From Acidobacteriota bacterium (GTDB lineage: Bacteria; Acidobacteriota; Vicinamibacteria; Vicinamibacterales; UBA2999): 54,830 nt of DNA. Shown piece after piece: positions 30,786-54,830 of the stretch (the first letter of the stretch is position 1; every line of letters starts with the position of its first letter). The DNA is taken from NCBI GenBank assembly GCA_027622905.1, contig JAQBVV010000004.1, positions 1 to 54,830 on the forward strand, written 5' to 3'. A model generated the notes under the pieces. That model was not told the DNA's origin. It searched no databases and was given only the letters and a program-made list of their open reading frames with translations. Both the position numbers and the translations under genes were made by a program.

Positions 30786-32503
30786 GTGCCGATAGATCGC
30801 GACGCCGCGCTGAACGAGGCGGAGAAGTTGCTTCGCCAGGGGAAACTGGACGGAGCCATCGAAGCGTACGTGCGCCTGGTCGAGGATCGGCCGTCGGACT
30901 GGAGTTCCATCAACACCCTTGGCGACCTCTGCCTGCGCGCTGGCGATGTCGAGCGCGCCATCGAGCAGTTCACCCGCGTCGCGGATCAGTTTTTTTCGGA
31001 TGGTTCGCTTCACAAGGCAGCGGCACTCTACAAGAAAGCGCTCCGGGCGCAGGAGGATCATGAGCCGGCGCTGCAACAGCTCGGCGAGATCGCCGTGCGG
31101 CAGGGACTCCAGGCGGATGCCGAGCTGTACCTCATACGGCTGGCAGAACAGCGCCAGCAGCGAGGCGACGAACAGGGCGCGGCGGAATCGCTTGCGCGGC
31201 TGAACGAACTGAAGGAAGCGCAGGCTCGGTCGCGGGGAGTCGCTCCCGCGGAGGAGTCGGACGTCGCCGACGCGCAGCCTGACATTGCCCTCTCGGAGGC
31301 GGCGACTGGCCGGGGTGTGGTTGAGGGCAGGAAGACCATTGCTTTCCAGACGACTGCTGCCGAGCCTGGCGCTGCCGACTTCGGCATCGTCGAGCGTGAT
31401 GCTACCGAGGCTGGCGCTGCCGACTTCAATATCGCCGAGCTTGATGCTGCCGAGCCTGACGCCCCTGAGGCTCACACAACCGAGGTTGACGTTTCAGTCG
31501 ACGCGATCGAGGTTGATATCTCCGATTTCAACCTTGCCGAGACAGGCCCTGCGGAGTCCAACATCGCCGAGCCTGATGCTGCCAAGCCTGACGCCGCCGA
31601 GGCTCACACAACCGAGGTTGATCTTTCCGATTTCAACATCGACGAGCCTGATGCTGCCGAGGTTGAGGCTGCTGAGATGGAGGGTGCTGCAGTAGGCCCT
31701 CCTGCGTTCGATGCCATCGAGACCAGTGACACCGAGTCCAGTATTCTCGACGCCCGTACTTCCGAGGCAGACAATTCGGAGAGAGGCACCCCCGAGGATA
31801 TCGTTGTTGATGATGCCGTCACCGCTCCGACCTCCCGCAGGCTAGCTGTCACCAGCGAATCCTCTGACGGGTCGACGGAAGAGGATTCCGAAGATCCGCT
31901 CCGCGAGGACACGCCTGTCGGGGTGCGGGCATGGCACGAGATCGAGGTGTCACTCGACCTTGGCGCGTCAAAGGGGGGGGGGCGCCAGAGGTCGAGCTTG
32001 GCGATGCACTGGACGAGATCACGCTCGGGCCGGCCGACACGGCTGATGTGCCGGTCGCGTCACCTCCCGATCGGGAATCGGACCTGGGGGACAGTGCCGA
32101 GGATCGGGCCGAGGGCCGTGGAGAGGATCGCGGAGAGGGCACCCTGGCCGGCGCAGTCAAAAGCGGTGCCGGGGACATCGATGTCGAGGCGTTGGAGCTG
32201 GCTGCGCGGGACCCCGGCACTCGATTCTCGGCGGCTGCGGCGCTTGGTCGACACTACGTCCGTTGCGGCGACCCGCGCACCGGGGCCCGGTGGCTGGAGC
32301 GGGCGCTCTCGGCAACGCCGGCGCGCCGCGAGGACGGCTTCGCGGTGAAGCACGAGCTGGCGGACGCCCTCGAGAGCCTTGGCGAGCCGGCTCATGCGCT
32401 CGCCGTGCTGATCGACCTCGATCTCGACTCCGGTGGGTATCAGGATGGGCGCGCCCGCATCGACAGGCTGATGGCGGCGCAGATGAGGAGCGCGGACTCG
32501 TGA
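30786..32503 (+). CDS. TPR protein with acidic repeat linker, split by a frameshift at a 10-G tract
   Basis: The first frame (from GTG 30786) encodes an N-terminal TPR array (about 1-140: AALNEAEKLLRQGKLDGAIEAYVRLVEDRPSDW, LGDLCLRAGDVERAIEQFTRVADQF, HKAAALYKKALRAQ). A very acidic linker of roughly 230 residues follows, built from imperfect repeats such as AEPDAAEPDAPEAHTTEVD. At G10 (31973-31982) the frame turns into Arg-rich shadow sequence. The -1 frame continues as APEVELGDALDEITLG and ends in another TPR-like region (AAALGRHYVRCGDPRTGARWLERAL) stopping at 32503. One added G (or two fewer) restores a single 572-residue protein. Sequencing error, slippage or phase variation are all possible. 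The stop overlaps the next gene (GTGA). Confidence 0.72.
31973..31982 (+). repeat. G10 homopolymer at the frame switch
   Basis: Ten consecutive Gs follow AAA and precede CGCC. This is the point where the coding frame of the TPR protein moves by -1, and no other base change is needed to join the two halves. The run is the longest homopolymer I noticed in the window. Confidence 0.85.
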
Positions 32504-32754
32504 GACGCCTGCTCCTGATCGTGTTCTTCTTTGAGGTTGGTCTCGTGCTGGTCGTGATTCCGTGGTTGGCATTCTGGGATCGCAACTACTTCTGGGAGCT
32601 CGTACCACCGCTGGGAGCGTTCATGACCAACAACTTCGTGCGAGGCGCGGTGTCTGGACTGGGACTGATCAACATCACCGCTGGTTGCCTTGAACTGGTC
32701 TCGGTGCTGTGGGCGCGCTCCGAGGGGCGTCAGGCGTCCATCACGTCGCCCTAA
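32500..32754 (+). CDS. Small two-helix membrane protein, unknown function
   Basis: An 84-residue protein starting at a GTG that overlaps the stop of the TPR gene (GTGA). It has two hydrophobic segments, RLLLIVFFFEVGLVLVVIPWLAFW at the N-terminus and VRGAVSGLGLINITAGCLELVSVLW near the C-terminus, joined by a short loop with DRNYFWELVPPLG. No family was recognised. Tight coupling to the TPR gene suggests the two products act together at the inner membrane. The MITE-like element starts 5 bp after its stop. Confidence 0.72.
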   Translation: MRRLLLIVFFFEVGLVLVVIPWLAFWDRNYFWELVPPLGAFMTNNFVRGAVSGLGLINITAGCLELVSVLWARSEGRQASITSP

Positions 32755-32758
32755 TGTC

Positions 32759-32909
32759 CCGCCTCAGAAGTTCGCCGACATATTCCGGGCGGGGCATCCC
32801 GTCTGGCGGCGTTGCTCCTTCCTCGAATATTCTCGATATTCTCGGTCGTCGCGCCTGGCCAATCCGGGCGCCGCGCTCCGGAATATTCGTCACCGAACTT
32901 CTGAGACGG
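32759..32909. mobile_element. MITE-like element A (151 bp, about 30-bp imperfect terminal inverted repeats)
   Basis: The left end reads CCGCCTCAGAAGTTCGCCGAC followed by ATATTCCGG. The right end, read on the minus strand, is CCGTCTCAGAAGTTCG then GTGACGAATATTCCGG. The two match over about 30 bp with a few substitutions and a 2-bp gap. The interior is not coding on the plus strand. Bases 32830-32898 reappear exactly, inverted, at 54762-54830. No convincing target-site duplication was found. It sits between the small membrane-protein gene and thiE. Confidence 0.75.
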
Positions 32910-33016
32910 CACACTCGCATTCGCGACACGAGGGTCCGGTATGTCAGCGATACGTCCCGCAGGATCCGGTCACGGTCGCATGCACGCGTGCGCGCTGAAA
33001 GACGCAGCATGACGAC

Positions 33017-34092: not shown

Positions 34093-34196
34093 TAGAGCGT
34101 TTATCGATTCGGTGGAGACCGAAGAACGCGGGAAAGCGCTTGTCGAAAAGGCCTGGCCCCTGCGAGAAGCCCTGGACCGAAACGAAGGGCGCTCCA
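34093..34196 (+). mobile_element. MITE-like element B, copy 1
   Basis: A 104-bp element with terminal inverted repeats related to TAGAGCG...TTCGATTCGGT at the left and, inverted, at the right (GGACCGAAACGAAGGGCGCTC). It is about 87% identical by eye to copy 2 at 50289-50392, collinear end to end. It fills most of the gap between the RodZ-like gene and the convergent small gene at 34216. It carries no gene of its own. Confidence 0.75.
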
Positions 34197-34215
34197 GTCG
34201 ACCGCGCTGAATCGG

Positions 34216-47208: not shown

Positions 47209-47255
47209 GGTGGACGGCAGGGGGATCGACGCCGCGACCTCTGTCTTGCGAACGC
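47209..47255 (-). other. tRNA-Ala 3'-half fragment (tRNA relic or att-like repeat)
   Basis: 47 bp matching the 3' half of the tRNA-Ala gene at 48706-48781, in the same orientation. Twenty-one bases from CC of the CCA end through the acceptor and T arm are identical, then GACCTCTG and TTGCGAACGC; overall 41 of 47. The two mismatch clusters fall on the 5' strand of the T stem and one side of the anticodon stem, so it cannot be a functional tRNA. It lies 1.45 kb downstream of the intact tRNA, with the amidohydrolase gene between. Confidence 0.8.
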
Positions 47256-48705: not shown

Positions 48706-48781
48706 TGGTGGACGGCAGGGGGATCGAACCCCTGACCTCTGCATTGCGAACGCAGCGCTCTCCCATCTGAGCTAGCCGCCC
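48706..48781 (-). tRNA. tRNA-Ala (anticodon CGC)
   Basis: 76 nt folding into a complete cloverleaf. The acceptor GGGCGGC pairs with GCCGTCC and includes the G3-U70 pair diagnostic for alanine. The D arm is GCTC/GAGC. The anticodon stem CTGCG/TGCAG has loop TTCGCAA (anticodon CGC, reading GCG codons). The T arm is AGGGG-TTCGATC-CCCCT, discriminator A73, and CCA is encoded. A partial copy of its 3' half lies at 47209-47255. The roughly 220 bp between it and the amidohydrolase start hold no other recognised feature. Confidence 0.97.
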
Positions 48782-50288: not shown

Positions 50289-50392
50289 TAGAGCGTGTTT
50301 CGATTCGGTGGAGACCAAAACACGCGGGAAAGCGCTTTTCGAAGAGGCCCGGCCCCTGCGAGAATCCCCGGACCGAAACGAAAAGCGCTCTA
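50289..50392 (+). mobile_element. MITE-like element B, copy 2 (at the 3' end of tsf)
   Basis: 104 bp with the best preserved ends of the family: TAGAGCGTGTTTCGATTCGG on the left and CCGAAACGAAAAGCGCTCTA on the right, inverted copies of each other apart from three positions. Both ends sit in CTAG, consistent with a TA-type target site. The right end supplies the TAG stop codon of tsf on the minus strand. The rest of the tsf-pyrH gap (50162-50288) shows nothing recognised. Confidence 0.8.
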
Positions 50393-51135: not shown

Positions 51136-51237
51136 TATGGTGCTTTTCGTTTCGGTCTAGGGCATTTTGAGGTGGCCAGACCTTTTCGAAAAGCACTTTC
51201 CGCGTTTCTCGGTGCCCACCGAATCGAAAAACGCTCG
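51136..51237 (-). mobile_element. MITE-like element B, copy 3 (between rpsB and tsf)
   Basis: About 102 bp, inverted relative to copies 1 and 2 and more diverged. Conserved blocks are TGCTTTTCGTTTCGGTC at one end and CACCGAATCGAAAAACGCTC at the other, with CCTTTTCGAAAAGCACTTTC in the middle. Copies 2 and 3 flank tsf in opposite orientation. Confidence 0.72.
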
Positions 51238-51355
51238 AGGTGTCCCGATCGGCTCGCGCGGATTTCATGAGCGCATCGCTCTCTAGCCATCGCCCTCAGT
51301 GGCCTCCTGCCCACGGGAGCATCGCGACCGACTGCTGGTAGAAATGAAATCCGCG

Positions 51356-54550: not shown

Positions 54551-54830
54551 TTCGTATCAACCTGCTTGGCGTCGAGAAACGAAGCACCAAGACGGCGACG
54601 TTCGATTTCGATGTCGGTCAGATGGTGACCGTCGCCTGTAGCCTGGTGATGGTGGTGACCGTGGTGGTCCTCGGCTGGTGGTACTGGTCGCTTCGAAACG
54701 AATCGCTGCAGCTGGATGATGAGCTGGCCGCCGGACGACAGGAGGTCACCCGCCTGCAGGCGTTCGGTGACGAATATTCCGGAGCGCGGCGCCCGGATTG
54801 GCCAGGCGCGACGACCGAGAATATCGAGAA
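54547..54830 (+). CDS. pilN: Type IV pilus assembly protein PilN, 5' part, running into a repeat at the window edge
   Basis: Inner-membrane PilM partner. About 94 codons are visible. MIRINLLGVEKR is the PilN start that binds PilM, followed by one transmembrane helix (VTVACSLVMVVTVVVLGWWYW, about 28-48) and the start of the periplasmic coiled coil (RNESLQLDDELAAGRQEVTRLQ). From residue 72 the coiled-coil pattern stops and the sequence is identical to half of element A (54762-54830), read in frame as FGDEYSGARRPDWPGA without a stop. Either the element has inserted in pilN or the window end is chimeric. Confidence 0.85.
   Translation, partial: MIRINLLGVEKRSTKTATFDFDVGQMVTVACSLVMVVTVVVLGWWYWSLRNESLQLDDELAAGRQEVTRLQAFGDEYSGARRPDWPGATTENIE
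54762..54830 (-). mobile_element. Partial copy of MITE-like element A at the window edge
   Basis: 69 bp exactly matching the reverse complement of 32830-32898. It begins with GTTCGGTGACGAATATTCC, lacks the outermost 11 bp of the terminal repeat, and continues to the last base of the window. It occupies the pilN reading frame. Confidence 0.85.

Follow-up and report, generated by a model that had tools for sequence, protein, structure and literature searches.

Different Transposon Ends around One Conserved Hairpin Core: A Candidate Superfamily of MITEs in Acidobacteriota and Other Bacterial Phyla

Introduction

The short gene-less palindrome lying upstream of a thiE gene in an acidobacterial contig raises a simple question: What is this element, and how did it come to be repeated? 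The window considered here is the whole contig of 54,830 bp (G000:C39:1-54830). A first-pass annotation had described a block with imperfect terminal inverted repeats (TIRs) upstream of thiE, had found part of it again at the end of the window, and had envisaged either a MITE mobilized in trans or a REPIN-like origin. The answer that we develop below starts from the limits of the element and its copies, continues with the folded core that all copies have in common, and then turns to the ends surrounding this core, which belong to different transposon families.

Results

The Element upstream of thiE

Alignment with intact relatives places the window element, a degenerate MITE-like sequence with putatively IS630-type ends, at positions 32754-32914, that is, 161 bp between flanking TA dinucleotides, with the minus strand as the strand of the folded core; the block originally delimited at 32759-32909 does contain an element, but its limits had to be moved outward. 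The imperfect inverted repeats reported upstream of thiE are present over 25 nt with 84% identity (32755-32779 / 32889-32913), the TIRs proper lying at 32755-32774 on the plus strand and at 32894-32913 on the minus strand. Both TIRs (TGTCCCGCCTCAGAAGTTCG and TGTGCCGTCTCAGAAGTTCG) agree with the ends of insertion sequences (ISs) of the IS630 family in other genomes, for example that of locus L343, CTAGTGTCCCGTCTCAGAA. The left flanking dinucleotide (32752-32753) is the TA of the target, which falls also within the stop codon TAA of the ORF at 32263-32754, and the right one (32915-32916) has decayed from TA to TC, as judged by comparison with intact copies. The gene downstream encodes ThiE (TMP-TENI, 137 bits).

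The fold of the 162-nt stretch far exceeds that of dinucleotide shuffles, with z values of -8.5 on the plus strand and -10.2 on the minus strand. Within it, at 32805-32862 on the minus strand, lies the conserved core, a hairpin with three tandem G.A/A.G modules that matches our core model R2 with 77.5 bits (E 2.9e-19). Searches of Rfam gave no match for the window element up to an E value of 10, and no relevant match for the five loci that were submitted.

The window contains other repeats as well. A second palindromic family of approximately 105 bp, with ends CTAGAGCG...CGCTCTAG, is found at 34094-34200, 50289-50392, and 51142-51239, and a further copy of it adjoins a core element in locus L017. 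Two direct repeats of 47 nt (47209-47255 and 48707-48753), 87% identical and 1.5 kb apart, resemble the end of a tRNA gene and possibly represent an att-like duplication. Moreover, an in-frame degenerate repeat array, with a spacing of mostly 45 nt, runs within the gene for a TPR protein at 31314-31721.

The Second Copy at the Contig End

The inverted match previously noted between 32830-32898 and 54762-54830 is exact (69 nt, 100% identity), and its arms can be extended to 74 nt at 97% identity (32830-32903 / 54757-54830). Since the window is the whole contig, this second copy occupies its final 69 bases. The copy lies on the plus strand, gives a partial R2 match at 54798-54830 (E 2e-6), and is incomplete: it starts approximately 20 bp into the terminal repeat and follows immediately on in-frame codons of a pilN-like coding sequence, with neither outer TIR nor TA. 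Other contig ends of this genome lying in the family have an intact TIR and a target site at their start. When the continuation of pilN was sought with a PilO search, only a separate pilus/secretion cluster was found. The second copy may be either a truncated copy or partial insertion, or an assembly tip. Because it is a contig tip devoid of the outer TIR, its 69-bp identity is weak evidence of recent spread. Of the two alternatives formerly drawn from this identity, the high-copy family stands, while recent spread does not follow from it and finds its support in another class of elements.

Copy Number and Distribution

BLAST searches of this genome with the window element return approximately 24 matches, which have a middle part of about 97 bp in common and differ in their outer parts, and a covariance model of this middle gives 38 matches (about 40 core matches in all); both searches, considered at E<=1e-5 for BLAST and E<1e-5 for the model, bear out the expectation of a high-copy family. 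An initial core model, R1, had poor structure and served for searching only. The core is present in 31 of 59 relatives, some of which have more than 60 copies, and in 70 of 396 Acidobacteriota when stricter filters were applied and at most 14 matches were scored per genome. Among the matches listed for named genomes in a pattern scan, it occurs in at least six further bacterial phyla, namely Thermodesulfobacteriota, Bacteroidota, Myxococcota, Elusimicrobia, Nitrospinota, and Pseudomonadota, the latter with a Massilia isolate; the listed matches include also single MAGs labelled Oscillospiraceae and Lokiarchaeota, which are possibly mis-binned. The cores of these genomes score between 55 and 76 bits with R2, some of them being among the sequences from which this model was built. 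Viral contigs showed no match to two core patterns, plasmids none to the window element or the Massilia element, and phages none to the Massilia element.

Complete elements measure approximately 160 bp (about 156-170 bp) and have no transposase gene, their interior being the folded core. Most complete copies have TIRs of 18-40 nt, which start with TAG or TAA. Of the 20 R2 loci that were fetched, nearly all have TIRs, and there is no fixed gene among them. In several genomes (loci L416, L395, L070, L011, and L022), the left arm of the element contains a GC-rich insert of about 35 nt, for instance CCACCCCAACGCGGGTGCCACGTCGGGGGCCCCGG, which is similar from locus to locus.

Structure of the Core

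The structure was studied in an alignment of 77 diverse cores taken on the minus strand (60 columns), with less than 85% identity over the core plus 35 flanking bases. The core spans approximately 58 nt, is common to all end classes, and has 15 pairs with strong covariation; 14 of these 15 hand-derived pairs were also predicted by RNAalifold with no structure supplied. Against shuffles, which disregard relatedness among the core sequences, paired cells amount to 95.3% versus 77.3% and the covariation score to 0.452 versus 0.156. Slid versions reach at most 0.094, a control that somewhat favors the hand-derived structure because this was derived from those very sequences. Two-sided exchanges, such as C-G to G-C or A-U to C-G, are seen at pairs 15-47, 18-44, 19-43, 24-39, 27-36, and 28-35. 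Between pairs lie three conserved 5'-GA/3'-AG mismatch modules, at columns 13-14/48-49, 16-17/45-46, and 20-21/41-42, and the core includes invariant non-canonical positions such as AAGGCGC...GAGCAACG. Pair 23-40 has G.U in 46 sequences, G-C in 24, and A-U in 5; the opposite strand would give an A.C mismatch in place of G.U, so that the position pairs on the minus strand only, which identifies this as the folded strand.

End Classes and Their Possible Partners

Among the TIRs surrounding this core, several classes without relation to one another can be distinguished: A (TAGTGTCCCGTCTCAGAAG, the class of the window element), B (TAGTCCCCTGGAACCGTG), C (TAGTGGTCTGG), D (TAGTGGCCTGTCC), G (TAGCAGCCCGTGGTGAAAGTCC), and H (TAAGGACCCGGGCAGGAATAA), with others found elsewhere and called X, V, and M. 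An intact IS of 1.47 kb in this genome, at locus L306, is bordered on either side by the G-class end CTAGCAGCCCGTGGTGAAA, with a match of 19 bp at each end. Its transposase of 465 aa has DUF772 and DDE_Tnp_1 domains, and its best match in NCBIfam is IS1182 (NF033551) with 184.6 bits, which lies below the cut-off of 270; for this reason we call it IS1182-like only. These ends recur in relatives of this IS from other genomes. Classes A, B, and D, in turn, have 12-19 bp of their ends in common with IS630-family ISs of the same order (e.g., L350, CTAGTCCCCTGGAACC), and genome G078 possesses a neighboring IS with A-class ends whose IS630 transposase (L318) scores 262 bits in NCBIfam versus a cut-off of 100. 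No IS630 relative was found in the genome of the window at E<=1e-20, and the partner of the window's own class A is consequently known only from relatives. Autonomous transposons with the same ends, as foreseen for a repeat moved in trans, hence exist in this genome for class G and in related genomes for class A.

Apart from one truncated neighbor, no cores were found inside these ISs. The pattern of the class B TIR, searched in three genomes, gave matches nearly all in short pairs and no long IS. For the H/TWA class, neither TIR pairs in the fetched loci, nor a TIR pattern search, nor DUF4096 led to a transposase.

The target sites were compared after orienting the elements by their core, and duplications were indeed recognized, of 3 bp in the TWA classes and of 4 bp in class G. 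The triplets immediately outside elements of classes H, X, and V read TAA/TAA in 30 cases, TTA/TTA in 13, and mixed in 2 (Fisher p 2.6e-9). The four outer bases of class G agree in 15 of 30 elements versus 8.5 in shuffles (p 0.00035), with examples such as TTAG/TTAG, CTAA/CTAA, and TTGA/TTGA. For classes A and B, the four outer bases agree about as often as in shuffles, and the conserved TA alone is in common; a TA without further duplication is weakly in line with what is expected for IS630. These three target patterns (TA; 4 bp; TWA) imply three kinds of transposase chemistry, two of which would have partners among the ISs described above, none having been found for the TWA type.

In this genome, the H-class end is present approximately 40 times. 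Of the contig ends that carry it, 23 were fetched, 12 of them in the left arm and 11 in the right, and every one stops 30-128 bases inside near-identical copies. This implies some twelve recent insertions, if not more, and accounts for part of the fragmentation of the assembly. One class of the family has been recently active; in practical terms, active copies are the site of no fewer than 23 contig ends in this genome.

Probable Exchange of Ends among Core Lineages

A maximum-likelihood tree was obtained from 75 inner regions with the ends excluded, its 98 columns being few and limiting the argument. The three end types require 8 changes on this tree, the least possible being 2 and the value for shuffled labels 35.6, and elements of IS630 type and V type appear as sisters with support of 99/92. 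In genome G051, elements of X type and G type are 92% identical in their inner region, and the same genome has a chimera (L229:1391-1506) with a left end of IS630 type and a right end that is IS1182-like. Such sequence relationships indicate that the ends follow the core lineages and yet have been exchanged several times.

Other combinations are found, too. Elements of Desulfobacteraceae type with H-type ends (L111:2982-3166, L163:2668-2851, and L208:13-197) have a different hairpin core, CGCAAAATCCTCGAAATAGC..GCTATTCCTGYGGTTTTGCTC, and palindromes of 44-75 bp, with little beyond two terminal repeats and no core (L218:1480-1523, L200:270-345, and L396:466-530), represent either internal deletions or empty forms. 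MITEs exist, therefore, that have the same ends and yet enclose a different core or no core at all, so that the core of the family is favored, not obligatory.

Discussion

In evolutionary terms, the family poses a puzzle: How can one and the same core be enclosed by the ends of different transposon families? The best answer, for which we estimate a probability of about 0.78, is that the repeat is a non-autonomous MITE, with ends that evolve separately from a conserved hairpin core and with mobilization in trans by ISs. That the family consists of MITEs is well supported by its TIRs, its many dispersed copies, the target duplications, and the ends matching those of ISs, in agreement with one of the two origins initially considered likely for the window element. 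A DDE transposase provided in trans would recognize the outer 20 bp or so at each end, with subfamilies bearing the ends of IS630 (TA), of IS1182-like elements (4-bp duplication), and of a third type (3-bp TWA), and with ISs of matching ends presumably acting as mobilizers. The core may have been retained because its folded form aids the spread of the element or makes its insertions tolerable. It seems to have changed mobilizing enzyme several times during its spread across bacterial phyla. Such exchanges presumably arise when elements that differ in their ends recombine within their common core, which would explain the L229 chimera; a second possible route, which we mention as a lead only, is inverted-repeat replacement by a transposase of IS1182 type (cf. 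IS1272, PMC5678879). With somewhat less assurance, we favor the broader proposal that an undescribed structured nucleic-acid domain, in which three tandem G.A modules follow one another within a hairpin, lies at the heart of a MITE superfamily that has repeatedly swapped transposase families, that is, a transposon parasite defined by its core rather than its ends that has crossed phyla.

The fold itself is open to other readings. It could be a property of DNA, namely a cruciform or a lagging-strand hairpin that aids transposition or shields the palindrome from cleavage, with no role as RNA. Whole elements are long palindromes, and tandem G.A pairs are stable in DNA too; the structure, however, is strand-specific, pair 23-40 being G.U on one strand versus A.C on the other, and the inner arms have a conserved asymmetry. 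A one-strand DNA hairpin could still give strand specificity via G.T pairs, and a DNA fold retains a minor share of our credence. The folded form of the core would most likely be RNA, a single-stranded DNA hairpin being less likely, and we regard the core, which covaries clearly and has no entry in Rfam, as a candidate structured RNA whose function is directly testable. More doubtful is the idea that the core is the selected unit, benefiting the host as a structured non-coding RNA or as a hairpin that binds protein, and that MITEs are its carriers. The conservation of structure and sequence in at least seven bacterial phyla while the ends differ would suit such a role, as would the invariant non-canonical positions. 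Against it stands the patchy presence among both the 59 relatives and the 396 Acidobacteriota, with copy numbers from 1 to more than 60 within a family, and the fetched R2 loci, with their TIRs and lack of fixed genes, resemble a selfish element.

Two further explanations concern the repeat as a whole. Palindromic form and high copy number would fit the REPIN-like element, moved by a RAYT (REP-associated tyrosine transposase), that the first-pass annotation had considered, but TIRs, target duplications of DDE kind, and end matches of 13-19 bp to DDE-type ISs are absent from REP/RAYT elements, rendering this origin very improbable. We give even less credit to the notion that only the two copies in the window exist, the second being an artificial join from the 32.8-kb locus. 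Its position at the contig end, with no outer TIR, makes a join conceivable, and yet the family would be unaffected by it, given the approximately 40 further core matches in the genome.

A MITE is defined, and assigned to its class, by its ends, and its interior is usually taken as filler; in the present family, it is the interior that is conserved and the ends that are exchangeable. If the non-autonomous MITE with separately evolving ends is the correct reading, a MITE can persist beyond the lifetime of its transposase by turning to a different one, and this would help to explain how such elements endure and cross phyla. A literature search with words of the core retrieved, from titles and abstracts, primer-like sequences and other apparent chance matches, and the literature searched, which covered few subscription journals, gave no account of a MITE interior common to different end families and phyla.

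Among known systems, REP and REPIN sequences are palindromes tagged by GTAG and CGTC, with REPs of 20-40 bp (PMC3733652). The family described here is likewise palindromic and present in many copies, but its elements measure 160 bp and have TIRs and target duplications. The ISs of the IS630 family have the end sequences and TA flanks of classes A, B, and D, whereas our elements have no transposase and contain the shared core as their interior. Similarly, class G shares with the IS1182-like IS of locus L306 the 19 bp at both ends and a CTAG-type target, without its transposase. IS1272, a member of the IS1182 family, is reported to replace inverted-repeat targets without duplications (PMC5678879), in contrast to the 4-bp duplications of class G. 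There is also a likeness to the bacterial MITEs Correia/NEMIS, RUP, and ERIC, among others, which are shorter than 200 bp and mostly gene-less, have TIRs and TA ends, and give long stem-loop transcripts, IS630-Spn1 having been proposed as the mover of RUP (PMC2229807). Our elements resemble them in their small size, lack of genes, TIRs, and TA at the ends. Each of the MITE families considered in that review, however, is found in one or few genera (PMC2229807), whereas here a single covarying core is distributed over several phyla and is surrounded by ends that belong to no fewer than two transposase families.
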